This document shows positions 10,829 to 29,826 of a stretch of 64,000 nucleotides of DNA, piece by piece. The position numbers were made by a program, and so were the translations under genes. Numbering within the stretch: the first letter of the stretch is position 1; each line of letters opens with the position of its first letter. The DNA comes from Pseudolabrys sp. (lineage in GTDB: Bacteria; Pseudomonadota; Alphaproteobacteria; Rhizobiales; Xanthobacteraceae): NCBI GenBank assembly GCA_026125895.1, contig JAHCKG010000017.1, forward strand, positions 1 through 64,000, in the 5' to 3' direction. The notes beneath the pieces were generated by a model that saw only the letters and a program-made list of their open reading frames with translations, was not told the DNA's origin and did no database searches.

Positions 10829-11845
10829 ATGGACAAGTTCATCGCGCGCTATCCGCTCTGGAGCCTGATCATCATCGTTTTGATCGCGGGCTTCCTGTGG
10901 CTGGTGCTGGCGGCATGGCCGCCCGAACTCGTTGCCGCCTGGGGCCGCAAGCAGATTTTCCTCAACGCGCTGCTCGGCGGCATCACGCTCGGCGCGCTGT
11001 ATTTCCTCGTCGCCGCCGGCTTCACCCTGATCTTCGGCCTGATGCGCGTCGTCAACCTCGCCCACGGCTCGCTCTATCTGATCGGCGGCTATCTTGGTTA
11101 CGAGATCTCTATCGCCTCGAATTCCTGGCTGCTGACCTTCCCGATCGTCTTCGTCATCGTGGCGATCATCGGCCTGCTGATGCAGCGCTTCATCTTCTCG
11201 AAGATGGAAGGTGAAGAACTGCGCCAGACCCTGGTCAGCATCGGCCTGTCGATCGTCTTCGCCGATCTGATGCTGTGGTGGTGGGGCGGGCAATCCTATT
11301 CGATCCTCGCCCCGCAATTCCTGCAAGGGCCGATGCACCTGCCCATCGTCAGCGCCGTCAACGAGTCGACCGGCGCGACCGTCTGGCTGCGTTATCCGGC
11401 CGTGCGCATCTGGATCCTGATCGCGGCCATCGTCATCGGCATCGCCATGTGGCTGGTGCTCAACCGCACCGCGCTCGGCATGCTGGTCCGCGCCGGCGTT
11501 GACGACCGTGAAATGCTGGCCGCCTCGGGCGTGCGCATCCAGCTTCTGTTTCTCGCGGTGTTCGGTTTTGGTGCCGGGCTTGCCGGCGTTGCCGGCATTG
11601 TCGGCGCCACGTTCCAGTCTCTGTCGCCTGGCGAAGACACGCGCTTCCTGCTGTCGAGCCTCGTTGTGGTGATCGTCGGCGGCATGGGCTCGATTGTCGG
11701 CGCGGCGCTGGGCGCGCTGATCATCGGCGTCGCCGAGCAAATGGGCTTCGTCTACGCGCCGACTTATTCGATCGTCTTCACCTTCCTGATCATGGCGGCG
11801 GTGCTGGCCTTCCGGCCGCAGGGCCTCCTCGGCACGAGGCGATAG
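10829..11845 (+). CDS. Branched-chain amino acid-type ABC transporter permease (LivH-like)
   Basis: This 338-residue inner-membrane protein has the LivH layout. It starts with one extra N-terminal membrane segment (WSLIIIVLIAGFLWLVL), followed by the core NALLGGITLGALYFLVAAGF and FGLMRVVNLAHGSLYLIGGY, the standard LivH motif. The C-terminal half holds the cytoplasmic coupling loop (VDDREMLAASGVRIQLLF). I chose ATG 10829 (MDKFIARYPLW); a TTG six codons upstream is less likely. It begins the long plus-strand run and is followed three bases later by the LivM-like gene. Confidence 0.93.
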   Translation: MDKFIARYPLWSLIIIVLIAGFLWLVLAAWPPELVAAWGRKQIFLNALLGGITLGALYFLVAAGFTLIFGLMRVVNLAHGSLYLIGGYLGYEISIASNSWLLTFPIVFVIVAIIGLLMQRFIFSKMEGEELRQTLVSIGLSIVFADLMLWWWGGQSYSILAPQFLQGPMHLPIVSAVNESTGATVWLRYPAVRIWILIAAIVIGIAMWLVLNRTALGMLVRAGVDDREMLAASGVRIQLLFLAVFGFGAGLAGVAGIVGATFQSLSPGEDTRFLLSSLVVVIVGGMGSIVGAALGALIIGVAEQMGFVYAPTYSIVFTFLIMAAVLAFRPQGLLGTRR

Positions 11846-11848
11846 ATC

Positions 11849-12910
11849 ATGTCGGTGCCCGATAACGCCCCTCGCCTGGCCGACCTTGCCGACCACCGCT
11901 CGTGGGCGCAGCGCATTCCCGTCGCCTGGTGGGTCGCCGCCGTCGTCCTGCTGCTGATGCCCATTGTCGCCAACAGCTTCTGGCTGTTCCAAGTGATGGG
12001 CTGGACCTTCATTCTCGGCATGATCGGGCTGAGCCTGATGTTTCTCGCCGGCTACGGCGGCATGGTCAGCCTGCTGCAGATGACGGTCGCCGGCGTCGCC
12101 GGTTACATGGTGGCGATCCTCGGCCAGTCGGGCGCGCACAATGTCAGCCTCGGCCTGTCGTGGTGGGTCTTTCTGCCGGCCGCATTCCTGATCGCCGCCA
12201 TCTTCGCCACCGTTTGCGGCGCGCTCGCCGTCCGCACCGACGGCATCTACACCATCATGATCACGCTCGCGATCGCCGCGGCCTTCTTCTATTTCACGCG
12301 GCAGAACTACTCGATCTTCAACGGCTATTCCGGTTTCAACCTGGTGCTGCCGCCGAAACTGTTCGGCGTGAACTGGCGCGATCCTATACCCTTCTATTAC
12401 CTGTCGCTCGCCTGCGCCGCCTTGTGTTACGGCGCCGTCGCCTACATCGCGCGCTCGCCCTTCGGGCTGGCGCTGCAGGGCGTGCGCGACAATCCGCGGC
12501 GCATGGCGGCACTCGGCTTCAACGTCATCGCGCATCGCGTTGCCGCCTATGCGCTGGCGAGTGTGTTCGCCTCGGCCGGCGGCATTCTCCTCGTGTGGCA
12601 GAATGCGCAGATCGCGCCGGGCACCATCGGCATCGCCTCGGCGATCGACGTTCTCGTCGTCGCGGTGGTCGGCGGGCTGCGCCGGCCGCTCGGGCCCTTC
12701 ATCGGCGCCTTCATCTATGTCCTGCTGCAGGTGTTCTCGACCGATATTCTCGGCTTCTTCGGCTTCTCCGCGGATCGCTTCAAGCTGATCATCGGCATCG
12801 GCTTCCTCGCCATCGTGCTGTTCTCGCCGGACGGCGTGCTGGCGCTGTGGGATCGCTGGCGGGTGCGGGCAGCGGCGCGCAAGGCGGCCGAGACCGGAGG
12901 TGGGGCATGA
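11849..12910 (+). CDS. Branched-chain amino acid-type ABC transporter permease (LivM-like)
   Basis: This 353-residue membrane protein is the second permease of the Liv-type importer. Typical LivM elements are FILGMIGLSLMFLAGYGGMVSL near residue 60 and VRDNPRRMAALGFNVIAHR near residue 215, the coupling segment that contacts the ATPases. It ends with a cytoplasmic Arg/Ala tail. Its stop overlaps the start of the LivG-like ATPase by four bases (ATGA), a sign of translational coupling. With its neighbours it imports an unknown organic acid, amide or aromatic compound delivered by a periplasmic binding protein. Confidence 0.93.
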   Translation: MSVPDNAPRLADLADHRSWAQRIPVAWWVAAVVLLLMPIVANSFWLFQVMGWTFILGMIGLSLMFLAGYGGMVSLLQMTVAGVAGYMVAILGQSGAHNVSLGLSWWVFLPAAFLIAAIFATVCGALAVRTDGIYTIMITLAIAAAFFYFTRQNYSIFNGYSGFNLVLPPKLFGVNWRDPIPFYYLSLACAALCYGAVAYIARSPFGLALQGVRDNPRRMAALGFNVIAHRVAAYALASVFASAGGILLVWQNAQIAPGTIGIASAIDVLVVAVVGGLRRPLGPFIGAFIYVLLQVFSTDILGFFGFSADRFKLIIGIGFLAIVLFSPDGVLALWDRWRVRAAARKAAETGGGA

Positions 12911-13710
12911 ATGCGCCCGTCGCCCCGTCCCGTCTGACCCAGCTCGGCGCCGGCACCACCACGTCCGGCAACGCGCTGGAGCTGCGCGGCATCACCAAGA
13001 TGTTCGGCGCGCTGGCGGCGATCTCCGACGTGACGCTGTCGGTCAAGCCGGGCGAACGGCGCGCCGTGCTTGGCTCGAACGGCGCCGGCAAGACCACTTT
13101 GTTCAACTGCATCGCCGGCGACTTCCTCCCCACCGCCGGCTTCATCCGCTTCTTCGGCGAGGACGTCACGGTATTCCCGCCGCACGAGCGCATCCGCCGC
13201 GGGCTGCGCCGCACCTATCAGATCTCCTCGCTGTTCACCGGCTTGAGCGTGATCGACAATGTCTATCTCGCCTGCGTCGGCGTCTCGCGAAACCGTTTCT
13301 CGCTGATCCGGCCGCGGGCCGACGATGCGCTGATGCACGCGGCGGGCATGCTGGTCGATGCCGTGCATCTCACTGGCGAGAAAGAACGCCTTGTCGGCGA
13401 ACTCGCTTACGGCCAGCAGCGCCAGCTCGAAATCGCGCTGGCGCTTTCCGGCGCGCCCCGCTTCATCCTGTTCGACGAACCGGCGGCGGGCCTCTCGCCG
13501 ACCGAGCGCAGCGACCTGATCCATATCCTGACGTCGCTGCCGAACCACATCGGCTACATCATCATCGAGCACGACATGGACGTCGCTTTGCGCGTCGCCG
13601 AGAGCGTGACGATGATGCACAACGGCCGCATCTTCAAGGAAGGCCGGCCGGAAGAGATCGAGGACGACCCGGAAGTCCAGGAGCTTTACCTCGGAGGCGG
13701 GCATGGCTGA
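12907..13710 (+). CDS. ABC transporter ATP-binding protein (LivG-like)
   Basis: This 267-residue ATPase has Walker A GSNGAGKTTLF (near residue 58), signature LAYGQQRQLEIALAL in place of LSGGQ, Walker B ILFDEPAAGLSP and switch His in IIEHDMD. The LAYGQQR variant is normal for LivG. The N-terminus carries about 20 extra residues before the ABC core. The start at 12907 overlaps the LivM stop by four bases, and its own end overlaps the next gene by eight, so the transporter genes are tightly coupled. Confidence 0.95.
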   Translation: MNAPVAPSRLTQLGAGTTTSGNALELRGITKMFGALAAISDVTLSVKPGERRAVLGSNGAGKTTLFNCIAGDFLPTAGFIRFFGEDVTVFPPHERIRRGLRRTYQISSLFTGLSVIDNVYLACVGVSRNRFSLIRPRADDALMHAAGMLVDAVHLTGEKERLVGELAYGQQRQLEIALALSGAPRFILFDEPAAGLSPTERSDLIHILTSLPNHIGYIIIEHDMDVALRVAESVTMMHNGRIFKEGRPEEIEDDPEVQELYLGGGHG

Positions 13711-15937
13711 ACGCCCGCACCGCCCGGCCGGATCGTCCATGCCCATCCTTCAGCTCCAGGGCGTGAACGTCTTCTACGGCCGCAGCCACGCCTTGCAGGG
13801 CGTCGATCTGGCGCTCGCCTCCGGGGTCCTCTCCGTCGTCGGGCGCAACGGCATGGGCAAGACCACCATGTGCAAGGCGATCATGGGCCTTGTCCCGGTG
13901 TCGTCGGGATCGATCCGCTTCATGGGCGATGAGCTCACCGGGCGCTCGCCGACCGAGATCGCGCGCATGGGCATCGGCTATGTGCCGCAAGGCCGCCGCC
14001 TGTGGCGCTCGCTGACGGTGGACGAGCACCTGCGCGTGATGTCGTCGGGCAAAGGAAGCTGGACGCCGGAACGGGTCTACGAAGTGTTCCCGCGGCTTGC
14101 CGAGCGGCGGCGCAACTTCGGCGGCGAATTGTCCGGCGGCGAACAGCAGATGCTGGCGATCAGCCGCGCACTGCTGATGAATCCGCGCCTGCTCATCATG
14201 GATGAGCCGACCGAGGGTCTCGCCCCCGTCATCGTCGCCCATGTCGAGGAAACGCTGGTGCGGCTTGCCGCCGAAGGCGACGTCTCCATCCTGGTTATCG
14301 AGCAGAACATCGGCGTCGCGACGCAGATGTCCGATCCCGTGGCCATCATGGTCAACGGCCGCATCCACCGCGTCATCGCCTCGCAGACTTTGGCCGCCGA
14401 TCGCGACCTGCAGCAGCGCCTGCTCGGCGTCGGCCGCCACAGCCACGACCAGACCGAAGAAGCCGACCCGACCACGGCAACCGCTGCGCGTCAGACGACG
14501 GCGCCCGCCGCGTCGCAGGGGCCGACGCGGATCTACGTCGCCAACCCGGTGCTGCCGACACGCTGGTCGCAGGACGTCCCGGCCGCCCGCATCGAAGCGG
14601 CGGCGCGCACCGTGTCGCGGCCCACGCTGGCGACGCTCGATGGCCGGCGCGTCGGCGACGTCTCGCCGCTGGCGGCGCGCGCGCCGCAGGAGCCGCACGT
14701 CATCGTCGCCGGGACGCTCGACACCAAAGGCGACGAACTGCGCTACATCCGCGATATCATCAAGGCTTCGGGTCTGCGCACGCGGCTGATCGATCTCTCG
14801 ACGATCGGCCGCAATCAGGGCGCCGATGTCTCCGCGCAGGAAGTCGCGCTCGCCTCGCCGACCGGCTCGGCCGGCATCGCGTCGGGCGACCGCGGCACCG
14901 CCGTCGCGGCAATGACCGATGCCTTCCGCGTCTGGATCGGCAAACAGCAGAACGTCGCCGGCATCATCTCGGCCGGCGGCTCGGGCGGCACGGCGATCGC
15001 GACCGCCGGCATGCAGGTCCTGCCGGTCGGCGTGCCGAAGATCATGATCTCGACCATGGCCGCGGGGAACGTCGCCGCCTATGTCGGCCCGACCGACATC
15101 ACCATGATGCACTCGGTCACCGATGTGCAGGGCCTCAACCGCGTCTCGCGCGCCGTGCTCGGCAACGCCGCCCATGCCATGGCGGCGATGGCGCGCAACT
15201 GGATCGAGCAGAACGCACCGGGCAAGACGCCACGCGCCGACGCCGATCGCCCCCTGGTCGGTATGACCATGTTCGGCGTCACCACGCCGTGCGTGCAACA
15301 GGTCGTCAAGCTGATCGAGAAGGAGTGGGAGCCGCTGGTGTTCCACGCCACCGGCATCGGCGGCCGTTCTATGGAGAAGCTCATCGACTCCGGGCTGATC
15401 CGCGCCGTCATCGACGTCTCGACCACCGAAGTCTGCGACATGATGATGGGCGGCATTCTCCCCGCCACGGAAGACCGCTTCGGCGCTGTCATCCGCACGC
15501 GCATTCCTTATGTCGGTTCGGTCGGCGCGCTCGACATGGTCAACTTCGGCGCGCCGGACACCGTGCCGGCGCAGTACCGCAACCGCAATCTCTATCCGCA
15601 CAATCCGCAGGTCACGCTGATGCGCACCACGACGGAAGAGAACCGGCGGATGGGCCGCTGGATCGGCGACAAGCTCAATCAGATGGACGGCCCGGTGCGC
15701 TTCCTCATCCCTGAAGGTGGCGTGTCGGCGCTCGATGCGCCGGGTCAGGCGTTCTGGGATCCGCAGGCGGATGCCGCCCTGTTCAATGCCATCACCGAGA
15801 CGGTGCGCGCCACCGCCACGCGGCAGATCATCCGCCTGCCGCACCACATCAACGATCCGGCTTTCGCCGCCGCTCTGGCACAGCACTTTCGCGCCTTGCA
15901 TCAGAGCCGCGCCCGCGGCGCATCCGGCAGGACCTGA
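13703..15937 (+). CDS. Fusion of a LivF-type ABC ATPase with a Tm-1-like (UPF0261) domain
   Basis: This is a 744-residue two-part protein. Residues about 13-242 are a complete LivF-type ATPase: Walker A GRNGMGKTT, signature LSGGEQQMLAISRAL, Walker B LLIMDEPTEG, and a VIEQNIG switch. Residues about 243-330 form an Ala/Thr/Pro-rich linker. Residues about 331-740 are a Tm-1-like/UPF0261 domain: VIVAGTLDTKGDEL, the glycine-rich SAGGSGGTAIATAG, MISTMAAGNVAAYVGPTDI, and the terminal IPEGGVSALD. Tm-1-like domains bind nucleotide; the name comes from a tomato antiviral protein. Their bacterial role is poorly defined. The start at 13703 follows a GGAGG and overlaps LivG by eight bases. No frameshift separates the two halves in the sequence given. 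Confidence 0.93.
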   Translation: MAERPHRPAGSSMPILQLQGVNVFYGRSHALQGVDLALASGVLSVVGRNGMGKTTMCKAIMGLVPVSSGSIRFMGDELTGRSPTEIARMGIGYVPQGRRLWRSLTVDEHLRVMSSGKGSWTPERVYEVFPRLAERRRNFGGELSGGEQQMLAISRALLMNPRLLIMDEPTEGLAPVIVAHVEETLVRLAAEGDVSILVIEQNIGVATQMSDPVAIMVNGRIHRVIASQTLAADRDLQQRLLGVGRHSHDQTEEADPTTATAARQTTAPAASQGPTRIYVANPVLPTRWSQDVPAARIEAAARTVSRPTLATLDGRRVGDVSPLAARAPQEPHVIVAGTLDTKGDELRYIRDIIKASGLRTRLIDLSTIGRNQGADVSAQEVALASPTGSAGIASGDRGTAVAAMTDAFRVWIGKQQNVAGIISAGGSGGTAIATAGMQVLPVGVPKIMISTMAAGNVAAYVGPTDITMMHSVTDVQGLNRVSRAVLGNAAHAMAAMARNWIEQNAPGKTPRADADRPLVGMTMFGVTTPCVQQVVKLIEKEWEPLVFHATGIGGRSMEKLIDSGLIRAVIDVSTTEVCDMMMGGILPATEDRFGAVIRTRIPYVGSVGALDMVNFGAPDTVPAQYRNRNLYPHNPQVTLMRTTTEENRRMGRWIGDKLNQMDGPVRFLIPEGGVSALDAPGQAFWDPQADAALFNAITETVRATATRQIIRLPHHINDPAFAAALAQHFRALHQSRARGASGRT

Positions 15938-15940
15938 GCC

Positions 15941-16825
15941 ATGCCCCGCTTTGCCCGATCCGATCTTCTCGCCCGCTACCGCGCCATGATCGCCCGCGGC
16001 GAGCCGATCGTCGGCGGCGGCGCCGGCACCGGCCTGTCCGCCAAATGCGAGGAAGCCGGCGGCATCGACCTTATCGTCATCTACAATTCCGGCCGTTTCC
16101 GCATGGCCGGCCGAGGTTCGCTGTCCGGCCTGATGCCCTATGGCGACGCCAACGCCATCGTCATGGACATGGCCGGCGAAGTGCTGCCGGTGGTGAAGAA
16201 CACGCCGGTGATCGCCGGGGTGTGCGGCACCGACCCATTTCGCTCCATGGACGTCTTCCTCGACGAGGTGAAGCGCATCGGCTTCTCCGGCGTGCAGAAT
16301 TTCCCGACCGTCGGCCTGATCGACGGCGTGTTCCGCCAGAACCTCGAAGAAACCGGCATAGGCTACGGCCTTGAGGTCGAGATGGTGGCGCTCGCCCACC
16401 GCAAGGATCTGCTCACGACCCCCTATGTATTCTGCGAGGCCGATGCCGTGGCCATGGCCAAGGCCGGCGCCGACATCATCGTCTGCCATCTCGGCCTCAC
16501 CACGGGCGGCTCGATCGGCGCCGAAACCGCGCTCCAGCTCGCCGACTGCCCGGCCATCGTCGATCGGTACGCCGAGGCAGCGCTGTCGGTGAAGCCGGAT
16601 GCGATCATTCTCGTCCATGGCGGCCCGGTCGCCGAACCGCCGGAAGCCGATTTCATCATGAAGAACACGCGGCACTGCCACGGCTTTTACGGCGCCTCCT
16701 CGATGGAGCGCCTGCCGGTCGAGACGGCGATCCGCGACCAGACACGGGCTTTCAAGACGATCAGCCGCGAAGGCGGCGCAGACAACCCGGCGGGGACAAC
16801 CCGCCGATCAAACGCCACCCGGTGA
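15941..16825 (+). CDS. PEP-hydrolase-family TIM-barrel protein
   Basis: This 294-residue protein belongs to the family called 'phosphoenolpyruvate hydrolase' or TIM-barrel signal transduction protein, related to the isocitrate lyase/PEP mutase superfamily. Landmarks are [18 protein letters not shown] at the N-terminus, [52 protein letters not shown], and the C-terminal [13 protein letters not shown]. The same barrel forms the C-terminal half of tomato Tm-1, whose N-terminal half resembles the UPF0261 domain ending three bases upstream. The two gene products therefore probably act as one functional unit. The natural reaction is not firmly known. No membrane segment is present. Confidence 0.9.
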
Positions 16826-16855
16826 TGCCGGCGCGGCGGACAGGAGAAACGTGAC

Positions 16856-19438
16856 ATGTCGGGGCAATTGATCGGATCCCTCATCCTCTGGCTCATCGTG
16901 GCGGTGATCGTCATCGCGATCGTCGTCTACCTGGTGAACTGGCTTTATCGGCGCTCCTCGAAGGAGGTGTCGTTCGTCCGCACCGGTCTGTTCGGAGAAA
17001 AAGTGGTGATCAACGGCGGCGCCTTCGTGCTCCCGATCATCCACGACGTCACGCCGGTCAACATGAACGTCATCCGCATGGCGGTGACCCGCGCCAATGA
17101 CGAGGCGCTCATCACCCGCGACCGGATGCGCGTCGATATCGACGCCGAGTTCTATGTGCGCGTACGCCCGCAACGCGAAGCCGTATCCGTCGCCGCGGCC
17201 ACACTCGGCCGCCGCACGCTGCAGCCGGAACAGCTCAACACCCTCCTCTCCGGCCGACTCGTCTCGGCGCTGCGCTCGATCGCCTCCGAAATGACCATGG
17301 AGGAGATGCACGAGAAGCGCGGCACCTATGTGCAGCGCGTCAAGGAATCGGCCGCGGAGGCGTTCGACCAGAACGGCCTCGAATTGGAAAGCGTCGCCAT
17401 CACCAATCTCGACCAGACCGACCTGCAATATTTCAACCCGTCCAACCGCTTCGATGCCGAAGGTCTCACCCGGATCATCGGGGAGATCGAGGAAAAGCGG
17501 AAGCTGCGCAACGACATCGAACAGGATGCGATGATCAAGATTCGCACCCGCAACCTCGAAGCCGAGCGTCTGTCGCTCGATATCGAACGCGACAGCGAGT
17601 CAGCCAAGCTCGAACAGCAGCGCGAGATCGAGATTCGCCGCGCCATGCAGCGCGCCGAAGTCGCCCGCGAACGCGCCGCGCGCGACACCGAAGCCGAACA
17701 GGCGCTGATCCAGTCCCGCGAGGAAATCGAGAAATCCCGCATTTCCAACGAACGCGCCATCAGCGAAGCACGCATCGCCTCCGAGCGTGACATCCGCCAC
17801 AAGGAAATCGAGCGTACCCGTGCGGTCGAGGAAGCCGAAATCGCCGCACGCGAACTGGTCGAGAAGGCCCGCATCGCCAACGAGCAGACCATCAACGCCG
17901 CGCGCATCGCCTCCGAACGCGAGATCCGCCAGAAGGAAATCGAGCGCATGCGTGTGCTCGAAGCCGCCGAAATCTCGGCGCGCGAATCCACCGACAAGGC
18001 CCGCGTTCTTCAGGAAGCGGCGGTGAATGTCGAGCGCATCGCCCGCGAACAGGAAGTTCGCCACCTCGAAATCGAACGCACCCGCGCCCTCGAACAGGAA
18101 GATATCGCGGCGCGCGAAGAGATCGAAGCCGCCCGCATCGCCCACGAAGAGCGCGTTCAGGCCCTGCAGATCGCTCGCAACAAGGCCATCAACGCCGCGG
18201 AAATCGCTGCGCGCGAGTCGACCGAGGCCGCCCGCATCGCCCAGGAGAAGGCGACCCGGGAACTGGATATCCAGCGCACCGCGGCGCTCGAAGCCGAGGA
18301 AATCAAGAAGCGCGACAGTGTGGAGCGCCAGCGCATCGCCACCGAGCTCAAGCTCGAACAGGAGCGCATCGCCTCGACCAAGACGCGCGAAATGCTCCAG
18401 ATCGACCAGAAGAAGACCATCGAGGTCGCCGAGGAAGAGCGCGCCATTACGCTGGCGGCCAAGAAGGCCGAGCGCACCGACGCCGACAAGGCGCTGCGTC
18501 AGGCCGAGATCGTGGCGCGGCAGGAGGTCGAGAAGATCGACATCGCCCGCGAACAGGCGCTCGAAGCCGCGCGGGTGGAACGCAGGCGCGCGCTCGAACA
18601 GCTCGAAATCGCCCGCAATCAGTCGCTGCAGGAAGCGCAGATCACCTCGAACGAGGAAGTCGAGCGCGCCCGCATTTCGTCGGATCGCGGCCTCGACGAG
18701 GCGCGCGTCGGCCGCCAGCGCGATCTGCGCAAGCTGGAGATCGAGCGCGAGCGTGACGTCGAGAACGCGGCGATGGAAAAGGCCATCGCGCTTTATGCCA
18801 AGTCGCTCGAGGAGTCGGCCGCGCAGGTCAAGGCCGAACTCGCCCGCGCCAAGGCCGTGGAAGCCGAAGAGCTCGTCAAGACGGTTCAGGAAAGCGAATC
18901 CGCCAAACGCCGCAAGGCCGTGGAAGTCACCCTCGCCGAAAAGGCGGCGGAAGAGATGCGCATCGCCGCCGCGGCCGACAAAGTGCGCCGCGCCGTCGAG
19001 GCGGAATCGCAGAAACTGCTCTACGAAGCCGAGAACGTTCTCTCCGATGGCGCGCGCTACGGCCTGTTCCGCCGCCGCCTGCTCGACCGCATCGAGGGCA
19101 TCGTGCGCGAGAGCGTCAAGCCGATGGAGCGGATCGAAGGCATCAAGATTCTGCACGTCGATGGCCTCGGGGGCGTCGGCGGTGCCGGCAGTGCCGTGCG
19201 TTCACCCACCGACGAGGTGATCGAGAGCGCACTGCGCTATCGCGTCCAGGCGCCGCTGATCGACGAGGTGCTCAAGGAAATCGGCATTGAAGGCGGCAAT
19301 CTCGCCAAAATGGGCGGCCTCATCCGTGAGGCCAGCGACATGCAGCGCATCGGCAAGGACGCGAAGGCGAAAGACGGCGGCGGCGACGGAAGCGGCAGTA
19401 GCGGCGGCAGCGGCTCCGGCCGCAAGGCCAAGGAGTAA
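16856..19438 (+). CDS. Giant flotillin-like SPFH protein with long 11-residue-repeat coiled region
   Basis: An 860-residue membrane-anchored protein. Residues about 5-31 are a hydrophobic anchor (LIGSLILWLIVAVIVIAIVV). Residues about 35-195 are an SPFH/flotillin head (GGAFVLPIIHDVTPVNMNVI, and TMEEMHEKRGTYVQRVKES). Residues about 282-523 and 560-636 are built of 11-residue units with Ile or Val at the fourth position (for example EARIASERDIR, HKEIERTRAVE, EAEIAARELVE). A conserved C-terminal segment (ALRYRVQAPLIDEVLKEIGI) and a Gly/Ser-rich tail follow. Ordinary flotillins have about 450-530 residues, so the stalk is much expanded. SPFH proteins build cages or microdomains at membranes. An AGGAGA site precedes the ATG. 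Confidence 0.9.
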   Translation: MSGQLIGSLILWLIVAVIVIAIVVYLVNWLYRRSSKEVSFVRTGLFGEKVVINGGAFVLPIIHDVTPVNMNVIRMAVTRANDEALITRDRMRVDIDAEFYVRVRPQREAVSVAAATLGRRTLQPEQLNTLLSGRLVSALRSIASEMTMEEMHEKRGTYVQRVKESAAEAFDQNGLELESVAITNLDQTDLQYFNPSNRFDAEGLTRIIGEIEEKRKLRNDIEQDAMIKIRTRNLEAERLSLDIERDSESAKLEQQREIEIRRAMQRAEVARERAARDTEAEQALIQSREEIEKSRISNERAISEARIASERDIRHKEIERTRAVEEAEIAARELVEKARIANEQTINAARIASEREIRQKEIERMRVLEAAEISARESTDKARVLQEAAVNVERIAREQEVRHLEIERTRALEQEDIAAREEIEAARIAHEERVQALQIARNKAINAAEIAARESTEAARIAQEKATRELDIQRTAALEAEEIKKRDSVERQRIATELKLEQERIASTKTREMLQIDQKKTIEVAEEERAITLAAKKAERTDADKALRQAEIVARQEVEKIDIAREQALEAARVERRRALEQLEIARNQSLQEAQITSNEEVERARISSDRGLDEARVGRQRDLRKLEIERERDVENAAMEKAIALYAKSLEESAAQVKAELARAKAVEAEELVKTVQESESAKRRKAVEVTLAEKAAEEMRIAAAADKVRRAVEAESQKLLYEAENVLSDGARYGLFRRRLLDRIEGIVRESVKPMERIEGIKILHVDGLGGVGGAGSAVRSPTDEVIESALRYRVQAPLIDEVLKEIGIEGGNLAKMGGLIREASDMQRIGKDAKAKDGGGDGSGSSGGSGSGRKAKE
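17765..18160 (+). repeat. Three tandem imperfect 132-bp units inside the flotillin gene
   Basis: The units start at 17765, 17897 and 18029 and encode 44 residues each, that is four 11-residue blocks. Each begins with an ARIASE- or ERIARE-like block followed by KEIER/LEIER, AEIAARE/EDIAARE and a fourth ARI/ARV block. Homology is clearest at the protein level. The 11-residue phase continues on both sides with weaker 44-residue order, pointing to growth by internal duplication. Confidence 0.75.
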
Positions 19439-19444
19439 GCGACC

Positions 19445-21172: not shown

Positions 21173-21655
21173 ATGGCCAAAAGTCCCGTCCAGTTTCGCC
21201 TCAACGGTTCCGACCGAGCGACCTTCGTCGATCCCGGCGACAATCTTCTGACCACGCTGCGGCGCGGGCTCAACGAGTTCGGCCCGAAATACGGCTGCGG
21301 CCAGGGCGCCTGCGGCGTCTGTACAGTACTGGTCGACGGTCAGCCCCACCTCTCCTGCCTCACATTGGCGGTCGCCTGCGAGGGCCGCCATGTCGAGACG
21401 GTGTCCGGGATGGCGGATGGCCCGAACCTGCATCCGCTGCAAAACGCGTTCATGGACAATTTCGCGGCGCAGTGCGGCTTCTGCACGCCGGGCATGCTGA
21501 TGGCGGCGCGCGCCCTGCTCGAGCGCAACCCGAACCCGACCCGCGAAGATGTTGTCGAGGCCATCGCCGGCAATATCTGCCGCTGCACCGGTTACGAACC
21601 GATCATCGCCGCCATCCTCGCCGCTGCCGGCAACCGCAACCAGCGGCAGGCCTGA
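21173..21655 (+). CDS. [2Fe-2S] subunit of the molybdenum hydroxylase
   Basis: This 160-residue small subunit has all eight cluster cysteines. The plant-ferredoxin-type cluster is held by CGQGACGVC and a later Cys in HLSCLTLA (about residues 43-65). The second cluster is held by CGFCTPGM and CRCTGYEP in the helical C-terminal domain. The length is typical of CoxS/NdhS. It carries electrons from the molybdenum site to FAD. The ATG at 21173 follows a GAGGAGA ribosome binding site. Confidence 0.95.
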   Translation: MAKSPVQFRLNGSDRATFVDPGDNLLTTLRRGLNEFGPKYGCGQGACGVCTVLVDGQPHLSCLTLAVACEGRHVETVSGMADGPNLHPLQNAFMDNFAAQCGFCTPGMLMAARALLERNPNPTREDVVEAIAGNICRCTGYEPIIAAILAAAGNRNQRQA

Positions 21656-21666
21656 AGGAGAACGCG

Positions 21667-23412: not shown

Positions 23413-23413
23413 C

Positions 23414-24442
23414 ATGGCACGCTACAAAGGCCGCGGCATGGCCTCGATCAACTACCCGATCGGCATGAACCTCGGCGGCGATCCCAGCCAGGCGCTGATC
23501 CATTCCAACCCGGACGGCAAGTTCACGGTCGCGCTCTCGGCCATCGATCTCGGCCAGGGCATGAAGCAGGTGACGCGGCAGGTGGCGGCGGAAACGCTCG
23601 GCGTGCCGGTCGAGGATGTCTATGTCGACACCGCCGACAGCGACACCGGCCCGCACGACATGGGCTCCTTCGCCTCGCGCGGCACGCACCGCATGGGCAA
23701 TGCCGTGATCGCCGCGGCGCGCGAGGCGCGCGGCGTGCTGCTTGAAGCGGCGGCGGAAGAGCTCGAAGTCAACGCCGCCGATCTCGTCACCGATGGCCGC
23801 GGAAACATCCACGTGCGCGGCGCGCCGTCGCGTTCGATCACGGTGCGCGCCACCGCGCAGGCCGCGCAGTTCAAGCAGGGCAAGACCATTGCCGGGCGCG
23901 GCATCTTCCTCATCCCGCTGTCGGCGGTCGATGCCGAGACCGGCGAGATGAATCCCAATACCGCTTTCGCCCATGCCTGTCTGGTCGCCGACGTCGAAGT
24001 CGATGACGAGACCGGGGAAGTCGCCCTGCTCGGCATCACCAGCGCCTATGAACTCGGCCGCGCGCTCAATCCGAAAATGGTCGAGCAGCAACTGGTTGGC
24101 GGCGCCTGGATGGGCCAGAGCCACGCGCTGTATGAAACGCCCGAGCCATACTATCCTAATCCGGATCACGGCCCGCGCGACTTCAATGAATATCTGATGC
24201 CGGGCCCCGGCGACATCGCGCCCTACTCGGTCACCATCCTCGAGCGTCCCGCGCCGGATGGTCCGTTTGGTGGCAAAGGCCCCGGCGAGATGTGCGCCAA
24301 TCCGGTGCTGCCGGCGGTCGCCAATGCCGTGTTCAACGCCGTCGGCGTGCGCGTCGATGAACTGCCGATCACGCCCGAGAAGGTGTTGCGCGGTCTGCGC
24401 GCCAATGGCGGCGCCAAGCCGCAAGCGCGCCGGGGCAACTGA
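23414..24442 (+). CDS. Molybdopterin-binding subunit of the hydroxylase, C-terminal half
   Basis: This 342-residue protein corresponds to the second molybdopterin-binding domain. It begins ARYKGRGMASINYPIGMNLGG and contains AIDLGQGMKQVTRQVAAETLGV, the SFASRGTHRMGNAV helix, and FGGKGPGEMCANPVLPAVA near residue 280, whose Glu is the catalytic base of the family. Its sequence takes up where the preceding protein loses homology, so the pair makes one active site. Eubacterium barkeri nicotinate dehydrogenase has a similarly split large subunit (NdhL and NdhM), which is a precedent and not proof of substrate. The gene has its own ATG at 23414 right after the previous stop. Confidence 0.92.
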   Translation: MARYKGRGMASINYPIGMNLGGDPSQALIHSNPDGKFTVALSAIDLGQGMKQVTRQVAAETLGVPVEDVYVDTADSDTGPHDMGSFASRGTHRMGNAVIAAAREARGVLLEAAAEELEVNAADLVTDGRGNIHVRGAPSRSITVRATAQAAQFKQGKTIAGRGIFLIPLSAVDAETGEMNPNTAFAHACLVADVEVDDETGEVALLGITSAYELGRALNPKMVEQQLVGGAWMGQSHALYETPEPYYPNPDHGPRDFNEYLMPGPGDIAPYSVTILERPAPDGPFGGKGPGEMCANPVLPAVANAVFNAVGVRVDELPITPEKVLRGLRANGGAKPQARRGN

Positions 24443-24444
24443 CC

Positions 24445-25329
24445 ATGGCCTTGCGCACGACCATCGCCGGCATTTCCAGCCCCGAAGCGCTCGCCGACGC
24501 GCTGCGGTCGGCTCTCTATCTCGCCGACGACGGCATCGCGACTGCTGGCTATCTGGCACTGGCGCTCGGCAAGCCATTGCTGCTCGAGGGCGCGCCGGGC
24601 GTCGGCAAGACCGAAGCGGCGAAGGCAATTGCCGGCATTCTCGGGCGGCAATTGATCCGCCTGCAATGTTTCGAGGGCATCGACGCCGCCGCCGCGCTTT
24701 ATGAATGGAACTATCCGCGCCAGATGCTGGCAATACGCCAGGCCCAGGACGGCAACAACGTCGATATCTACCGCGACGAGTTCCTGATAGAGCGGCCGAT
24801 GCTCACCGCCTTGCGACGGCCGGAATCCACCGTGCTGCTGATCGACGAAATCGACCGCTCCGACCACGAATTTGAAGCGTTCCTGCTCGAGTTCCTGTCG
24901 GACTTCTCGATCTCTATCCCTGAGCGCGGCACCTTGCGCGCGGCGGAGCGGCCGGTGGTGATCCTCACCTCAAACCGCACGCGCGACCTGCACGAAGCGC
25001 TGCGGCGCCGCTGCGTCTACCACTACATCGCCTATCCCGATCCGGCGCGCGAAGCCGAGATCATCATGCTGCGCTCGTCCGCCGTCGCCGAAAGCACGGC
25101 GCGCGCTGTGGTCGCCGCCGTCGGCATCCTGCGCAACGAGCCATTGTCGAAACCGCCCGGCGTCGCCGAAGCAGTCGACTGGGCCGAAGCCGCGACGGCG
25201 CTGGCCCGCACCGGCGCCTCCTGGCCGGAAGCGTTCCGCCGCTCGCTCGGCGCGGCGATCAAAGATGAGGAAGACCTCGCGCATCTGCGCCCGCGCCTCG
25301 CGCAATTCATCCCGGGAATGGCGGCATGA
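24445..25329 (+). CDS. MoxR-family AAA+ ATPase (CoxD-like)
   Basis: This 294-residue ATPase has Walker A GAPGVGKTEAAK (near residue 50), Walker B VLLIDEIDRSD (near 130), and the sensor-1 region VVILTSNRTRDLHEALRRRC. In CO-dehydrogenase operons CoxD, a MoxR ATPase, works with the VWA protein CoxE to complete the molybdenum-copper site. Here the same pair follows a hydroxylase whose pocket is xanthine-dehydrogenase-like, so it may serve active-site maturation or assembly of the split enzyme. It begins two bases after the hydroxylase and overlaps the VWA gene by four bases. Confidence 0.93.
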   Translation: MALRTTIAGISSPEALADALRSALYLADDGIATAGYLALALGKPLLLEGAPGVGKTEAAKAIAGILGRQLIRLQCFEGIDAAAALYEWNYPRQMLAIRQAQDGNNVDIYRDEFLIERPMLTALRRPESTVLLIDEIDRSDHEFEAFLLEFLSDFSISIPERGTLRAAERPVVILTSNRTRDLHEALRRRCVYHYIAYPDPAREAEIIMLRSSAVAESTARAVVAAVGILRNEPLSKPPGVAEAVDWAEAATALARTGASWPEAFRRSLGAAIKDEEDLAHLRPRLAQFIPGMAA

Positions 25330-26438
25330 CCATGCGGGTCCCAGGCGCGGCCCGGCCGCTGATCGCGTTTCCGGCGCTGCTGCGCAGCCACGGATTCATG
25401 GTCGCGCCGGAGCAGACGGTCAGCTTCCTGGAAGCGGTCGAACTGCTCGGCCCGCGTACCATCGAGCATGTGCGCAAGGCCGCGGTGGCGACGCTGGCGC
25501 CGCACCCCGAACAGCGCCCGCTGTTCGACACGCTGTTCGACATGCATTTCATCGGCGCGGTCGGCGAACCCGGCGAGGACAGTTTCGAACCCGATGATGA
25601 GATGCAGGTGCAGGACGATGTCGGCACCGAAGAGATCGTCGTCGGCGACGAGGTCAACGAAACCGGGCAGACTGCGACCGGCGCGGAAGCGCTTGCGGTG
25701 CGCGAACTGCGCGTGCCGGACGACACCGCCACCTTGCGGCGCTTCGGCGATGCTTTGCCCGATGCCTTGCCGCGTCGGCGCGGCTATCGCCAAAAGGCCG
25801 CGCGCCGCGGCAAGGGCATCGATCTCGCGCGCAGCCTGCGGGCCGCCATGCGCAACGAAGGCGAGGTCATGGACCTCAAGCGGCTGCGGCGTGCTACGCG
25901 ACCTCGCCCCATTCTTCTTCTCATCGACGTTTCTGGCTCAATGAAGCAACGGAGCGACGCGCATCTGGCGCTGGCGCATGAGATCGTCCATGCACTACCG
26001 CGGGTCGAGGTGTTCACCTTCGGCACAAGGCTCACCCGCCTCACCCGCGCGCTGCGACTGCGCAACCGCCAGCAGGCGCTTCGGGAAGCCTCCGGCCTCG
26101 TCGCCGACTGGGACGGCGGCACGCGGATCGGCGATGCGCTCGAAGCCTTCCTCGCGGTGCCGCGCTTTGCCGGCTACGCCCGCGGCGCCAATGTCATCGT
26201 GCTGTCGGACGGCCTCGAACGCGGCGATCCGACGACCATGATCCGCGCCGTCAAGCGGCTCGCGGCCCGCGCCCACCGCATCGACTGGTTCACGCCGCTC
26301 GCTACCGAGCCCAGCTACAGCCCGCAGACCGAGGCGCTGCGCGCCATCCGCCCGCTGCTGGCCTCGCTCGGCGATGCCAGTTCCACCGCCCGGCTGTGCC
26401 GGGACATTCTTGCCATCGGAGACTTGCAAGCAGCATGA
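25326..26438 (+). CDS. VWA-domain protein (CoxE-like)
   Basis: This 370-residue protein has an N-terminal helical region, an acidic middle (DSFEPDDEMQVQDD) and a C-terminal von Willebrand A domain. The MIDAS motif DVSGSMKQRS (DxSxS) is near residue 199, a conserved Thr lies in DWDGGTRIGDA, and LSDGLERGDP follows. CoxE proteins partner with MoxR ATPases to remodel or load metalloenzymes. The start ATGA overlaps the MoxR stop, and the end overlaps the amidohydrolase by four bases. It is soluble with no signal peptide. Confidence 0.92.
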   Translation: MTMRVPGAARPLIAFPALLRSHGFMVAPEQTVSFLEAVELLGPRTIEHVRKAAVATLAPHPEQRPLFDTLFDMHFIGAVGEPGEDSFEPDDEMQVQDDVGTEEIVVGDEVNETGQTATGAEALAVRELRVPDDTATLRRFGDALPDALPRRRGYRQKAARRGKGIDLARSLRAAMRNEGEVMDLKRLRRATRPRPILLLIDVSGSMKQRSDAHLALAHEIVHALPRVEVFTFGTRLTRLTRALRLRNRQQALREASGLVADWDGGTRIGDALEAFLAVPRFAGYARGANVIVLSDGLERGDPTTMIRAVKRLAARAHRIDWFTPLATEPSYSPQTEALRAIRPLLASLGDASSTARLCRDILAIGDLQAA

Positions 26439-27316
26439 CCGGCCTCGTCGACGCACATTTTCATATCTGGCGCCAAGCAGACCTGCCCTGGCTGATGGGG
26501 CCTATGCAGCCGCGCATCTTCGGACCCTATGAGCCGATCCGGCGCGATTATCCCGTCGAGGAATATCTCGCCGATTGCCGGCCGCAAGGCTGCACCGAGG
26601 CCGTCTACGTGCAGGCGAACTGGGCGCCGAACCGGGCGCTGGACGAGGTGCGGTTCGTCGCGGAGTCGGCGCGCCGCGCCGCCTTCCCGATCGCCACCGT
26701 CGCTTATGCCGACATGCTGGCCGCCGATATCCGGCCGCAACTCGATGCGCTCGCCGCCGAGCCTTCGGTGCGCGGCGTCCGCATGCAGTTGCATTGGCAC
26801 GAGAACGCGCTGTACCGCTTCGCGCCGAATCCGGACCTCGCCCGCGATCCGCTGGTTCAGCGCAATACGGCGCGGCTCTCCGACTACGGCTTCAGTTTCG
26901 ACCTTCAGGTGTTCGCCAGCCAGATGGCCGGCGCGGCCGAGCTTGCCAAATCCTGCCCGAACGTCACCTTCGTTCTCCAGCATGCCGGCATGCTGGAGGA
27001 CCTGACACCGGACGGCATCGCCGCGTGGCGCGACGGCATGAAGCTGCTGGCCGCCTGCCCCAACATCGTTAGCAAGCTGTCCGGTCTCGGCACTTTCATC
27101 CGCCGCAACGATGCGGCGCACGTCGCCTTTATCGCCGGCGAGACGCTGGCGCTGTTCGGCGCCGAGCGTTGCCTGTTCGGCTCGAATTTTCCGATCGAGA
27201 AGCTGTGGACAAGCTACGCCGCGCTGGTCGAGGCGCACCGCGCCGCCGTCCCGGCTGCCGATCACGATCACGTCTTCAACAAAACCGCGCGCCGCGTCTA
27301 CAGGCTCGGCCAATAG
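26435..27316 (+). CDS. Amidohydrolase-2 family (TIM-barrel lactonase type) protein
   Basis: This 293-residue metal-dependent hydrolase is of the amidohydrolase-2/COG3618 type, which includes sugar lactonases and 2-pyrone-4,6-dicarboxylate lactonase. The first metal ligands are in DAHFHIW (residues 6-12). Later active-site segments are VRGVRMQLHWHE, VLQHAGMLED and RCLFGSNFP. The last is FGSNFP rather than the more common FGSDxP, so the usual catalytic Asp position reads Asn. That form also occurs in relatives. It probably opens a lactone or cleaves an amide made by the upstream hydroxylase (inference). The ATG at 26435 overlaps the VWA stop. Confidence 0.87.
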   Translation: MTGLVDAHFHIWRQADLPWLMGPMQPRIFGPYEPIRRDYPVEEYLADCRPQGCTEAVYVQANWAPNRALDEVRFVAESARRAAFPIATVAYADMLAADIRPQLDALAAEPSVRGVRMQLHWHENALYRFAPNPDLARDPLVQRNTARLSDYGFSFDLQVFASQMAGAAELAKSCPNVTFVLQHAGMLEDLTPDGIAAWRDGMKLLAACPNIVSKLSGLGTFIRRNDAAHVAFIAGETLALFGAERCLFGSNFPIEKLWTSYAALVEAHRAAVPAADHDHVFNKTARRVYRLGQ

Positions 27317-27335
27317 AACGAATGGGAGGCTCACG

Positions 27336-28184
27336 ATGGCTTTGGAAATCAAAATTCTCGACTACGGCGATATCGAGCTTGAATCGAGCTTCCTCGTTCT
27401 CGGCCGCGATTGCGGCCGCGTCCGCCGCGTTCACACCTTCGGCTTCCTGGTACTGGGCGGGCCCTGGCCGATCGTTGTCGATACCGGGTATCGCCACAAC
27501 CAGATCATGGAGAGCCTCGGCATGCGCGGCCTCCAGTTCCACGAGAACATGATCGAGAACCAGCTCGCGAAGCACGGCGTGCGCATGGGCGACGTGCGTT
27601 ACGTGTTGCACACCCACCTGCATATCGACCACGCCGGCAAGGACGAATTATTCCCGATGAACACCACGGTGATCATCAACCGGCGCGAACTCGAATATTC
27701 GGTGTCCGGCCTGATGCATCCGCAATACCCGGCGCCTGATATCAAGCATCTCGTCGATCGCCTGCACACCCGCGACGCGTTGCGCCTCGAAGACCTCGAA
27801 CTCTCCGGCATGATCGAGCTGTTCCCCGGCTGCTATCTGGAGATGGCCGGCGCCCACACCGAGGGCTCGATGAACGTCCACGTCGACACCGCCGAGGGCC
27901 GCGCCACCATCTGCGGCGACGTCATCTACGATTTCAACGACCAGATCGTGAATCCCTTCCACGAATTGCACGCGAACGAGCCGCGCACCACCGGCAATCA
28001 TGGCGTCTCCAAGCGTGAGGAAAAGGCGGCGATCAAGAAGCTGCTCAACAGCTCGAAGTTCCTGCTGCCGATCCACGACAAGCCGGCGAAAATCGCCCAC
28101 GGCCAGGTGATCGGGCGCATGGACATGACCGTCCCCGGCCCGGTGGTGCAGAGCCTGCCGCCGCGCAACTGGTTCGCGGCCTAG
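27336..28184 (+). CDS. Metallo-beta-lactamase-fold hydrolase, N-acyl-homoserine-lactonase-like
   Basis: This 282-residue protein has the metal-binding signature HTHLHIDHAG near residue 92, a further His in AGAHTEGSM, and an Asp in ICGDVIYDF. It resembles the AHL-lactonase family, whose members open homoserine lactones, but many serve other lactones. Its position among catabolic genes makes a metabolic lactonase role more likely than quorum quenching (inference). A GGGAGG ribosome binding site precedes the ATG at 27336. No signal peptide is visible. Confidence 0.87.
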   Translation: MALEIKILDYGDIELESSFLVLGRDCGRVRRVHTFGFLVLGGPWPIVVDTGYRHNQIMESLGMRGLQFHENMIENQLAKHGVRMGDVRYVLHTHLHIDHAGKDELFPMNTTVIINRRELEYSVSGLMHPQYPAPDIKHLVDRLHTRDALRLEDLELSGMIELFPGCYLEMAGAHTEGSMNVHVDTAEGRATICGDVIYDFNDQIVNPFHELHANEPRTTGNHGVSKREEKAAIKKLLNSSKFLLPIHDKPAKIAHGQVIGRMDMTVPGPVVQSLPPRNWFAA

Positions 28185-28236
28185 CAAACGATAAGGGGCG
28201 CATGGAAAGACGCCCGACGCTGTCGAGGATTTGGTC

Positions 28237-29826
28237 ATGACAACGCATGTCGCCGTCCGTCCGGGCTTTGCCGACCTCATCGATCCGTGGGCGCCCGTGC
28301 GGCAGATCGGCACCGGCTTCCAGTTCACGGAAGGGCCGATCTGGCACCCGGCCGACGGCTACCTCTTGTTCTCCGACATGCCGGGCGATGTGCGCCGCCG
28401 CTACGATGGAGGTGGCATCCGCGAGGTCATGAAGCCGGCCAACAAGTGCAACGGCATGACCTACGATGCCGAGCTCAACCTCATCGTCTGCGAGCACGCG
28501 ACCTCGACGCTCGTGCGCGAGCGGCCGGACGGCCGGCGCGAGGTCATCGCCTCTCATTTCGACGGCATGGAGCTCAACAGCCCGAACGACGTCTGTGTCA
28601 AATCGGACGGCGCGATCTATTTCTCCGATCCCTGGTATGGCCGCATGCCGGTTTACGGCGTCGAGCGGCCGCGCCAGCTCGGCTTCCAGGGCGTCTATCG
28701 CGTGCCGCCGGGCGGCGGCAAGCCGCAATTGCTGGTGGACCGCTATCTGTTCGATCAGCCGAACGGTCTCTGCTTCTCGCCGGACGAGAAGCTGCTCTAC
28801 ATCAACGACACGGTGCAACAGGTCATACGCGTCTTCGACGTGCAACCCGACGGCAAGCTGTCGGGCGGGCGGATGTTCGCCTCGGGCATTTACTCGGCCG
28901 CCGAACCGGGCGTGCCGGACGGCATGAAATGCGATGCGCAAGGCAATATCTGGGTCTGCGCGCCGGGCGGCGTCTGGGTCTATGCGCCGGACGGCGCACT
29001 GATCGGCAAGGTGCGCGTGCCCGAACTGGTCGGCAACCTGACCTGGGGCGGTTCGGACTTCCGCACCCTGTTTCTCACCGCCTCTCATTCGGTCTACACG
29101 GTGCAGACCAAGGTCGGCCCACGCATCGAACCCTACATGCGACAAGGAGCGACCCGCGGTGGATCGGCGCCGCAAGCGGGCGCCAGCGTCGCCCGCAACG
29201 GCACGAAGAAAGCGGCCGCCGGTTACACGCTCGACCCGTCGCGCTGCGCGCTCATCATTCAGGACATGCAGAACGATGTCGTGATGGATGGCGGCGCTTT
29301 CGCCTCGTCCGGCTCCCCCGCCCATTGCCGCGAGCAGAACGCCATCGGCAATGCGTCACGGCTCGCCGCCGCCGCGCGCGCGCGCGGCATCCCGGTCATC
29401 CATGTCTGGTTCGTGGTCGAAGCCGGCTGCCCCGGCGTCACGATGAATGCGCCGTTGTTCGAAGGCCTGGCCGATGCGCGCGCCCTGGTACGCGGAAGCT
29501 GGGGATCGGCTCCTGTACCCGGCCTCGAGGCCCAGCCAGGCGATCACATCGTCGAAAAGCAGCGCATGAGCGCTTGGGAAGGCACCCGGCTCGAGACGGT
29601 GCTCAAGGCGCTCAAGCGCGACATCGTCATCGTCACCGGCGCCTGGACCAACATGTCTATCGAACACACCTCGCGCACCGGCGCCGACAAGGGCTACTAC
29701 ATGGTGGTGCCGGAGGATTGCTGCTCGACGATGAACGCCGAATGGCACACCGCGTCAGTGAACTACGCGCTGCAGAACGTCGCCGTCGTCACCGACAGCG
29801 ACGCCCTGGCGGGATCCTGGAACTGA
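28237..29826 (+). CDS. SMP-30/gluconolactonase domain fused to an isochorismatase-like domain lacking the catalytic Cys
   Basis: This is a 529-residue fusion. Residues about 10-300 form an SMP-30/gluconolactonase beta-propeller (GFQFTEGPIWHPADGYLLFSD, NSPNDVCVKSDGAIYFSDPW, PNGLCFSPDEKLLY). Residues about 330-529 form an isochorismatase/cysteine-hydrolase fold with Asp in LIIQDMQNDV and Lys in HIVEKQRMSAW. Where the family has TNVCV, this protein reads TNMSI, so the nucleophilic Cys is Ser. The second domain may therefore be a non-amidase hydrolase or a structural partner. I used ATG 28237 in place of a TTG two codons earlier. It closes the long plus-strand run and is convergent with another SMP-30 gene. 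Confidence 0.9.
   Translation: MTTHVAVRPGFADLIDPWAPVRQIGTGFQFTEGPIWHPADGYLLFSDMPGDVRRRYDGGGIREVMKPANKCNGMTYDAELNLIVCEHATSTLVRERPDGRREVIASHFDGMELNSPNDVCVKSDGAIYFSDPWYGRMPVYGVERPRQLGFQGVYRVPPGGGKPQLLVDRYLFDQPNGLCFSPDEKLLYINDTVQQVIRVFDVQPDGKLSGGRMFASGIYSAAEPGVPDGMKCDAQGNIWVCAPGGVWVYAPDGALIGKVRVPELVGNLTWGGSDFRTLFLTASHSVYTVQTKVGPRIEPYMRQGATRGGSAPQAGASVARNGTKKAAAGYTLDPSRCALIIQDMQNDVVMDGGAFASSGSPAHCREQNAIGNASRLAAAARARGIPVIHVWFVVEAGCPGVTMNAPLFEGLADARALVRGSWGSAPVPGLEAQPGDHIVEKQRMSAWEGTRLETVLKALKRDIVIVTGAWTNMSIEHTSRTGADKGYYMVVPEDCCSTMNAEWHTASVNYALQNVAVVTDSDALAGSWN

Follow-up and report, generated by a model that had tools for sequence, protein, structure and literature searches.

The stretch analysed here (the window) comprises 64,000 nucleotides, positions 1 to 64,000 of contig JAHCKG010000017.1 from Pseudolabrys sp., which belongs to a 4.5-Mb assembly of 50 contigs (completeness 82%, contamination 5%). 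It carries a run of 17 plus-strand genes, from a LivH-type permease (10829) to a gluconolactonase/isochorismatase fusion (29826), in which an importer, both halves of the plant protein Tm-1, a flotillin, a split molybdenum (Mo) hydroxylase and lactonase-like proteins stand together. The successive intergenic gaps are 3, -4, -8, 3, 30, 6, 1, 1, 10, 11, 1, 2, -4, -4, 19 and 52 bases, of which the maximum, 52, is the only one above 30. An initial annotation, made from the letters of the window, had described this one-strand run; its coordinates and largest gap are exact, its count of 16 genes is one short, and its family assignments agree with Pfam, the LivG-type ATPase being recognised through NCBIfam.

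Upstream of the run, on the same strand, lie genes for a LIV-type periplasmic binding protein (7283-8548; Peripla_BP_6, PF13458, E 2e-61), an iron-type alcohol dehydrogenase (8666-9721; PF25137) and an AraC-type regulator (9858-10694; PF12833). The run itself opens with LivH- and LivM-type permeases (10829-11845 and 11849-12910; both PF02653), a LivG-type ATPase (12907-13710; best NCBIfam models UrtD and LivG, both below cut-off) and a LivF-type ATPase fused to UPF0261, the N-terminal half of Tm-1 (13703-15937); with a binding protein, two permeases and two ATPases, the complement of a LIV/HAAT importer is complete. There follow a PEP_hydrolase-type TIM barrel corresponding to the C-terminal half of Tm-1 (15941-16825; PF09370, E 1.1e-127; 411 bits with Mll9387, 2p10), an 860-residue flotillin (16856-19438) with Band_7 and Flot domains (PF01145 and PF15975, over cut-off), and two SRPBCC proteins (19445-19882 and 19884-20336; both PF10604), the second 48% identical to the first. 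The Mo hydroxylase has a FAD subunit (20338-21162; PF00941, PF03450), a 2Fe-2S subunit (FeS; 21173-21655; PF00111, PF01799) and a Mo subunit divided into an N-terminal half (MoN; 21667-23412; PF01315, PF02738) and a C-terminal half (MoC; 23414-24442; PF20256). A CoxD/MoxR-like AAA ATPase (24445-25329; PF00004, PF07728), a CoxE-like VWA protein (25326-26438; PF05762, E 1e-50), a lactonase-like protein of the amidohydrolase-2 family (26435-27316; PF04909), a protein of metallo-beta-lactamase fold resembling acyl-homoserine lactone (AHL) lactonases (MBL; 27336-28184; PF00753) and a gluconolactonase fused to an isochorismatase-like domain (SGL-ISO; 28237-29826; PF08450, PF00857) end the run.

Flanks on either side were fetched for 10 relatives to judge the extent of the unit. 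A binding-protein homologue lies upstream of AraC in all ten, and a homologue of the iron-type alcohol dehydrogenase lies in the upstream flank of six, as also in a plasmid copy from Shinella; an AraC homologue precedes LivH in 30 of 31 hydroxylase-bearing loci, with no match in the other (L063). Downstream of the isochorismatase-like domain, the genes compared were those flanking the unit in the window and three that follow it in Yoonia, and none of them recurs at a fixed place. Because the binding protein and dehydrogenase recur upstream in relatives and none of the compared genes recurs downstream, the unit is best drawn at 7283-29826, as about 20 genes with the binding-protein gene first, a component that any ABC importer requires. 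Promoter scans gave no sites in both stretches scanned; terminator-like sites numbered nine in the upstream stretch (3.5 in shuffles) and three in 15800-30200 (10.3 in shuffles), with none at the unit's end. The genes are predicted to be co-transcribed.

Conservation, gene fusion and the place of flotillin

In genome samples drawn from the order and from the phylum, UPF0261 was present in 133 of 397 and 38 of 398 genomes, respectively. Among the matches listed, at least 57 other frames of at least 700 residues carry UPF0261, and 40 of these 57, chosen by flank length, were fetched as 20-kb stretches, some of which end before MBL or SGL-ISO. As far as the stretches reach, 31 of the 40 represent the Mo-hydroxylase version in the window's order, with the TIM barrel undetected in two (L039 and L050) and AraC in one. 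Eight others take a short form, LivH-LivM-binding protein-LivG-LivF/UPF0261-TIM-flotillin-SRPBCC-SRPBCC, without Mo enzyme or lactonases; the TIM barrel is undetected in three of these, and L033 has a single SRPBCC gene, placed before flotillin. The remaining locus, L064, has neither flotillin nor Mo genes in its stretch. A scan of named genomes with MoC confirmed at least 562 relatives, and among the best 80 of these, 68 run flotillin-SRPBCC-SRPBCC-FAD-FeS-MoN-MoC in order, the other 12 being cut by contig ends. Named hosts include Bradyrhizobium, Bosea, Phreatobacter, Chelatococcus, Xanthobacter tagetidis and Aquabacter spiritensis; with species of Bradyrhizobium, Bosea and Xanthobacter among the carriers, culturable strains therefore exist. 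Near-full copies lie on plasmids of Shinella zoogloeoides (L072; MBL not found) and Yoonia (L079; LivG, TIM and FeS genes in two pieces each), and in two genomes outside the order (L200, MBL not found, and L201). The gene set is more than a chance association, for its arrangement persists across families and, in two further cases, in genomes from outside the taxonomic order. The initial annotation had staked its grouping on the genes not turning up separately in most genomes, and the loci examined bear it out.

Individual loci vary in detail. In L065, AraC, LivH and LivM are 34-62% identical to their counterparts in the window, and the genes from LivG onward 70-91%; in L047 the genes from AraC to LivG are 86-90% identical and the later ones 63-86%. 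Such swapping of importer parts may signify an altered substrate range. Two additional genes interrupt the run in L050: a sulfotransferase-like open reading frame precedes flotillin, and an EamA transporter separates MoN from MoC. L056 has a PRA-isomerase-like frame between TIM and flotillin.

The fused gene is a single open reading frame, with an ATP-binding cassette (ABC) ATPase domain at residues 33-170 (PF00005) and two UPF0261 domains at 331-499 (PF06792) and 516-732 (PF23189). Its UPF0261 half scores 325 bits against plant Tm-1 (3wry), compared with 194 bits against the other solved UPF0261 protein, 9mpy. Both the UPF0261 and the PEP_hydrolase TIM domains of Tm-1 are present in the unit; in the plant they form one chain, whereas here they are encoded by adjacent genes 3 bases apart, and UPF0261 is fused to an ABC ATPase inside an apparent catabolic operon. 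Sections of one study of Tm-1 argue for a bacterial origin of both halves (PMC5028733).

Flotillin follows this fusion closely. It is present in 39 of the 40 fused loci picked by UPF0261, and over all loci studied, most of which were found through the Mo gene, it lies within 6 kb of UPF0261 in 108 of 109 fused loci versus none of 31 unfused ones, with three more flotillin loci at stretch edges. The script itself had counted 107 of 108 fused and 1 of 32 evaluable unfused loci; the exception, L058, in which the UPF0261 match is broken in two pieces yet listed as one 772-residue frame, was re-counted as fused. The fused exception is again L064, from genome G100, where flotillin sits with the Mo half of the unit. 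Among 24 unfused UPF0261 loci that were fetched, the TIM gene is adjacent in 19 and an SRPBCC gene present in 12, and flotillin in none (L224 is cut downstream). The contexts of the UPF0261-TIM pair are many, and sugar-importer clusters on rhizobial plasmids are among them. On a plasmid of Thermomicrobium roseum (L074), an unfused set of LIV, binding-protein, Tm-1-like and TIM genes is followed by PEP-synthase-like parts and then an XDH-family enzyme annotated with one Mo subunit.

The hydroxylase has a distribution of its own. Orthologues of MoC, a clean set scoring 592 bits or more (next match 215), occur in 60 of the 397 genomes of the order. Of these 60 genomes, 38 have the LivF-UPF0261 fusion no more than 15 kb from MoC, and G100 has it about 180 kb away; in eight, UPF0261 and MoC are on different contigs, and these were left out of the fetched loci; in 13 the hydroxylase is solo. 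FAD, MoN and MoC are present in all 13 solo loci, FeS in 12 (L174 being cut), CoxD, CoxE and the lactonase-like gene in 12, and SRPBCC in six. Flotillin was not found in these 13 loci, the upstream side being in view in 12 and L174 being cut beside MoN. The operon is thus composed of two modules that are also found apart, one of importer, Tm-1 and SRPBCC genes, the other of Mo hydroxylase, CoxDE and lactonase genes. Flotillin is tied first to the importer/Tm-1 module and not to the hydroxylase as such, because eight of the 40 fused loci carry it without a Mo enzyme, and it was not found in the loci of 13 of 60 hydroxylase genomes.

The window's flotillin shows a hydrophobic N-terminal stretch and long charged repeats, and its gene contains a 132-base (44-codon) tandem repeat at 17727-17986; it scores 38 bits against the NCBIfam FloT equivalog, far under the cut-off of 700. 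With starts inferred from the match to the window protein and no correction for kinship, flotillins span 860-1183 residues (median 969) in 36 hydroxylase-bearing loci and 536-744 residues (median 733) in 10 short-form loci, ranges that do not overlap. A scan of one short-form copy, L041, showed its second SRPBCC protein joined to an alcohol dehydrogenase of Zn type, and second SRPBCC proteins of similar length occur in L046, L048, L057, L066, L068 and the Variovorax locus L073. Asp-rich C-ends are found on the short-form flotillins of L041, L046, L048, L057, L066, L068 and L070, and not on the hydroxylase-form ends that were inspected.

The split hydroxylase, its tail and its neighbours

Domains for FAD, both 2Fe-2S clusters and molybdenum cofactor binding are all matched by Pfam, which places the enzyme among the XDH-family molybdenum hydroxylases. 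In that family the catalytic Glu motif is located in the C-terminal half, and MoC has a conserved GE near its C-end (G291-E292), invariant in seven of seven rows of alignment A1. The division of the Mo subunit, as the initial annotation had proposed, is real: the MoN frame stops before MoC in all 124 loci surveyed, and on a plasmid of the archaeon Salinigranum rubrum (L078) the two halves are annotated as two genes, which together rule out a frameshift. Distant members of the split family are found in Nonomuraea and in S. rubrum, where, at 12328-17434 of L078, the enzyme adjoins a cyclase-family gene and an SRPBCC gene.

The best solved match is 3HRD, the nicotinate dehydrogenase of Eubacterium barkeri. 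It too has its Mo subunit in two chains; chain A is matched over nearly its whole length by MoN, and chain B likewise by MoC. Nicotinate dehydrogenase acts on nicotinate and contains labile selenium; it differs from the present enzyme in that its 425-residue large chain leaves no room for a tail, and in its pathway, no nicotinate pathway gene being recognised in the unit by a Pfam scan of its genes. Aerobic carbon monoxide dehydrogenase (cox) clusters share the FAD, FeS and Mo subunits as well as CoxD- and CoxE-like factors. Identity with that enzyme was rejected, since MoN reaches 157-159 bits and MoC 101-130 bits against large-subunit models with cut-offs of 950-991, so that even the summed halves fall far below. 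Nor are the SRPBCC proteins CoxG, there being no CoxG-family match among their Pfam hits; an SRPBCC profile matches bacterial SRPBCC structures and, weakly, PYR/PYL receptors.

The lactonase labels rest on fold families, for all curated lactonase models are below cut-off. The amidohydrolase-2 protein scores 99 bits against an L-fuconolactonase model with a cut-off of 400, and the MBL protein, a member of fold family PF00753, scores 51.5 bits against the AHL lactonase model AiiA (cut-off 375). Cysteine hydrolases of isochorismatase fold use an Asp-Lys-Cys triad; in SGL-ISO of the window the expected catalytic Cys is replaced by Ser, as it is in 19 of 22 relatives, while three could not be read at the site. 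Because a conserved Ser stands in place of Cys, this domain is perhaps not an amidase. An attempt to deduce the substrate from solo contexts was given up as the neighbours are inconsistent: L173 stands beside a Peripla_BP_4 sugar-type ABC transporter and an aldo/keto reductase, L175 beside an aldo/keto reductase, and, at 13903-17329 of L171, the solo hydroxylase directly beside nadC-, FAD_binding_2- and nadA-type genes.

The most distinctive feature of the enzyme is the C-end of MoN, where a low-complexity tail of 132 residues, with an abundance of Pro, Ala, Gln, Ser, Thr and Gly, ends in the peptide RFSSVFGTRRR. In a first set, tail and peptide were found in 31 of 31 flotillin loci, window included, and among ten loci without flotillin, nine end 7-12 residues past the conserved core and L081 reads in pieces. 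The survey of 124 loci, restricted to those with a reachable MoN C-end and MoC above 250 bits (which leaves out L081, among others), comprises 100 loci with both flotillin and peptide, 14 with neither and none discordant; in the ten with flotillin's place out of view, nine have the peptide and one lacks it. The search pattern demands a final RRR, and all rows that fail it have tails of 12 residues or fewer. Full tails are Pro/Ala-rich and 73-184 residues long; RFSSVFGTRRR itself, with two Phe and four Arg within 11 positions, is the commonest ending, exact in 79 of 109 and closely varied otherwise. The last 15 columns of alignment A2 (15 rows) are 94% identical and nearly gapless, whereas the linker has 66% identity and 29% gaps. 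A tree of 45 rows separates the 29 tailed sequences, as a single group, from 16 solo rows (support 100/100, one change); because the tailed rows form one clade with one change, the association of tail and flotillin reflects a single origin with long retention, rather than 100 independent events. Since untailed split enzymes exist, the tail is not required for the split enzyme as such.

A conserved terminal peptide after a variable linker, found only where a scaffold gene is present, is the pattern of a cargo tag, here with a single origin. Encapsulin cargo enzymes likewise carry a flexible linker and a short conserved C-terminal peptide, and are encoded beside the scaffold gene. The present putative scaffold would differ in being a membrane flotillin, not an HK97-fold shell. 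As for other partners of the tail, the TIM barrel is unlikely, being undetected in L039 and L050, both tailed, and so is MBL, not found in L072 and L200, also both tailed. The LIV-UPF0261 genes are not a required neighbour, as G100 keeps the tail with its LIV-UPF0261-TIM half about 180 kb from the flotillin-Mo half.

A tentative model of uptake and oxidation at the membrane

We propose, with a probability of roughly 0.45, that the unit, present in Hyphomicrobiales and some neighbouring orders, is a conserved operon for uptake and oxidation, which would serve a lactone route with parts tethered at the membrane, the tail docking on flotillin or its microdomain. The LIV-type ABC importer would take up a small organic compound, which the Tm-1-like pair (UPF0261 and TIM barrel) and the SRPBCC proteins may bind or act on. 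The split XDH-family hydroxylase, matured by the CoxD/E-like factors, would oxidise the compound, most likely to a lactone, and the lactonase-like proteins would open it. Fused to the importer ATPase, the Tm-1-like enzyme would be held at the membrane; the hydroxylase would be held there by its flexible tail, the conserved last residues of which would dock on flotillin or its microdomain. The substrate is best guessed to be a lactol or O-heterocycle, because a lactone is what oxidation beside a ring oxygen yields, and most of the examined settings of the hydroxylase include a lactonase-like gene. The lactone route is itself a guess, as the curated models are below cut-off, and the lactonase-like gene was not found in L176 nor beside the Mo genes of the Salinigranum plasmid.

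Three traits point to tethering near the membrane, namely the LivF-UPF0261 fusion, a flotillin that tracks this fusion, and a hydroxylase linker and peptide confined to flotillin loci. They also give partial support, from evidence that the initial annotation lacked, to its suggestion of a flotillin microdomain beside the transporter; what did not hold is flotillin's tie to the hydroxylase as such. In the simplest history, the order of whose steps we infer, the importer/Tm-1/SRPBCC module gained flotillin together with the LivF-UPF0261 fusion, and then joined the Mo hydroxylase module, whereupon MoN gained its tail and fixed peptide and flotillin lengthened. Each step would fit the recruitment of enzymes to a membrane site.

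Several observations weigh against this proposal. As the tailed hydroxylases are one clade, a single inherited event, with no functional link behind it, might account for tail and flotillin together. Many of the loci counted are closely related, and it was the Mo gene itself that led to 80 of them; the flotillin lengths are uncorrected for kinship. The short form has flotillin but no tailed protein, curated lactonase models remain under cut-off, the lactonase-like gene was not found in the two settings just named, and solo hydroxylases adjoin differing transporters or nadABC.

In the strongest rival, which we consider unlikely though the likeliest of the alternatives, the unit is a catabolic operon of ordinary type; flotillin would be a general stabiliser or quality-control factor for membrane proteins, and the tail would serve another role, such as solubility. 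A bacterial flotillin is reported, in portions of one study, to hold unfolded proteins (PMC11222466), and the confinement of the tail to one clade, together with the absence of a MoN-like tail among the operon proteins checked in nine short-form loci, would be natural on this account. It explains less readily why the terminal peptide is conserved while the linker turns over, or why flotillin holds its position beside two SRPBCC genes in hydroxylase-bearing loci; moreover, untailed split hydroxylases imply that the tail is unneeded for enzyme assembly as such.

A bolder form of the tethering model, slightly more doubtful than the stabiliser, holds that flotillin builds a membrane-attached nanocompartment beside the Tm-1-fused importer, into which the Mo hydroxylase would be loaded as cargo via its RFSSVFGTRRR-type C-terminal peptide. 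Substrate would pass from the transporter into the flotillin-bounded assembly, and the longer flotillins of hydroxylase-bearing loci would make room for it. Cages that possibly hold enzyme activities, and HflK/C around proteases, are discussed in parts of a study of flotillin (PMC11260169), whose cage shares SPFH and Flot domains with the present protein. That cage is from mammalian cells, and the sections concerned do not mention a cargo tail (PMC11260169), whereas here the flotillin gene lies inside the operon of an oxidising enzyme.

Rather improbable is direct anchoring of the tail to membrane, lipid or polyanion through its cationic, aromatic C-end, flotillin being uninvolved. Two Phe and four Arg in the commonest peptide would suit such an anchor, as would flotillin-less copies that lack the peptide; yet a short peptide of conserved sequence, with Ser, Gly and Thr among its residues, would resemble a docking motif more than a generic anchor. 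Very unlikely is a unit for degrading or sensing signals, with lactonases acting on acyl-homoserine-type lactones and SRPBCC proteins binding small ligands. AHL-lactonase structures are the best, though weak, matches of MBL, and the SRPBCC profile reaches weakly to PYR/PYL receptors, but the MBL gene was not found in Shinella L072 and L200, where the remainder is kept, and an ABC importer with a Mo hydroxylase better suits nutrient use. That the genes are unrelated neighbours under separate regulation is hardly credible, for although the two modules occur apart in other genomes, 31 of 40 loci share the gene arrangement, which also holds beyond the taxonomic order, and the genes overlap or nearly touch.

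As a catabolic operon the unit is of a familiar kind and of new design. The initial annotation knew of no described system with this set, in agreement with the literature searched, in which no paper describing the bacterial gene set was found. It places flotillin in an operon with an importer and an oxidising enzyme, the tail of which is conserved in the flotillin-bearing lineage; if this tail is indeed an address for flotillin, it would define a new kind of enzyme compartment, and its 11 residues could provide a handle for studying the recruitment of enzymes to a flotillin scaffold. The operon also gives the two halves of plant Tm-1 a defined context that includes a fused transporter ATPase. 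In passages on the plant protein, the role of Tm-1 beyond virus resistance is described as open (PMC5028733).

Adjoining the unit in the window, at 29879-38336, is a separate cluster of sugar-acid type, with gluconolactonase and TRAP transporter genes (minus strand) first, then a DeoR regulator, an SBD_N/NBD_C gene and a galactarate/altronate dehydratase-like gene.

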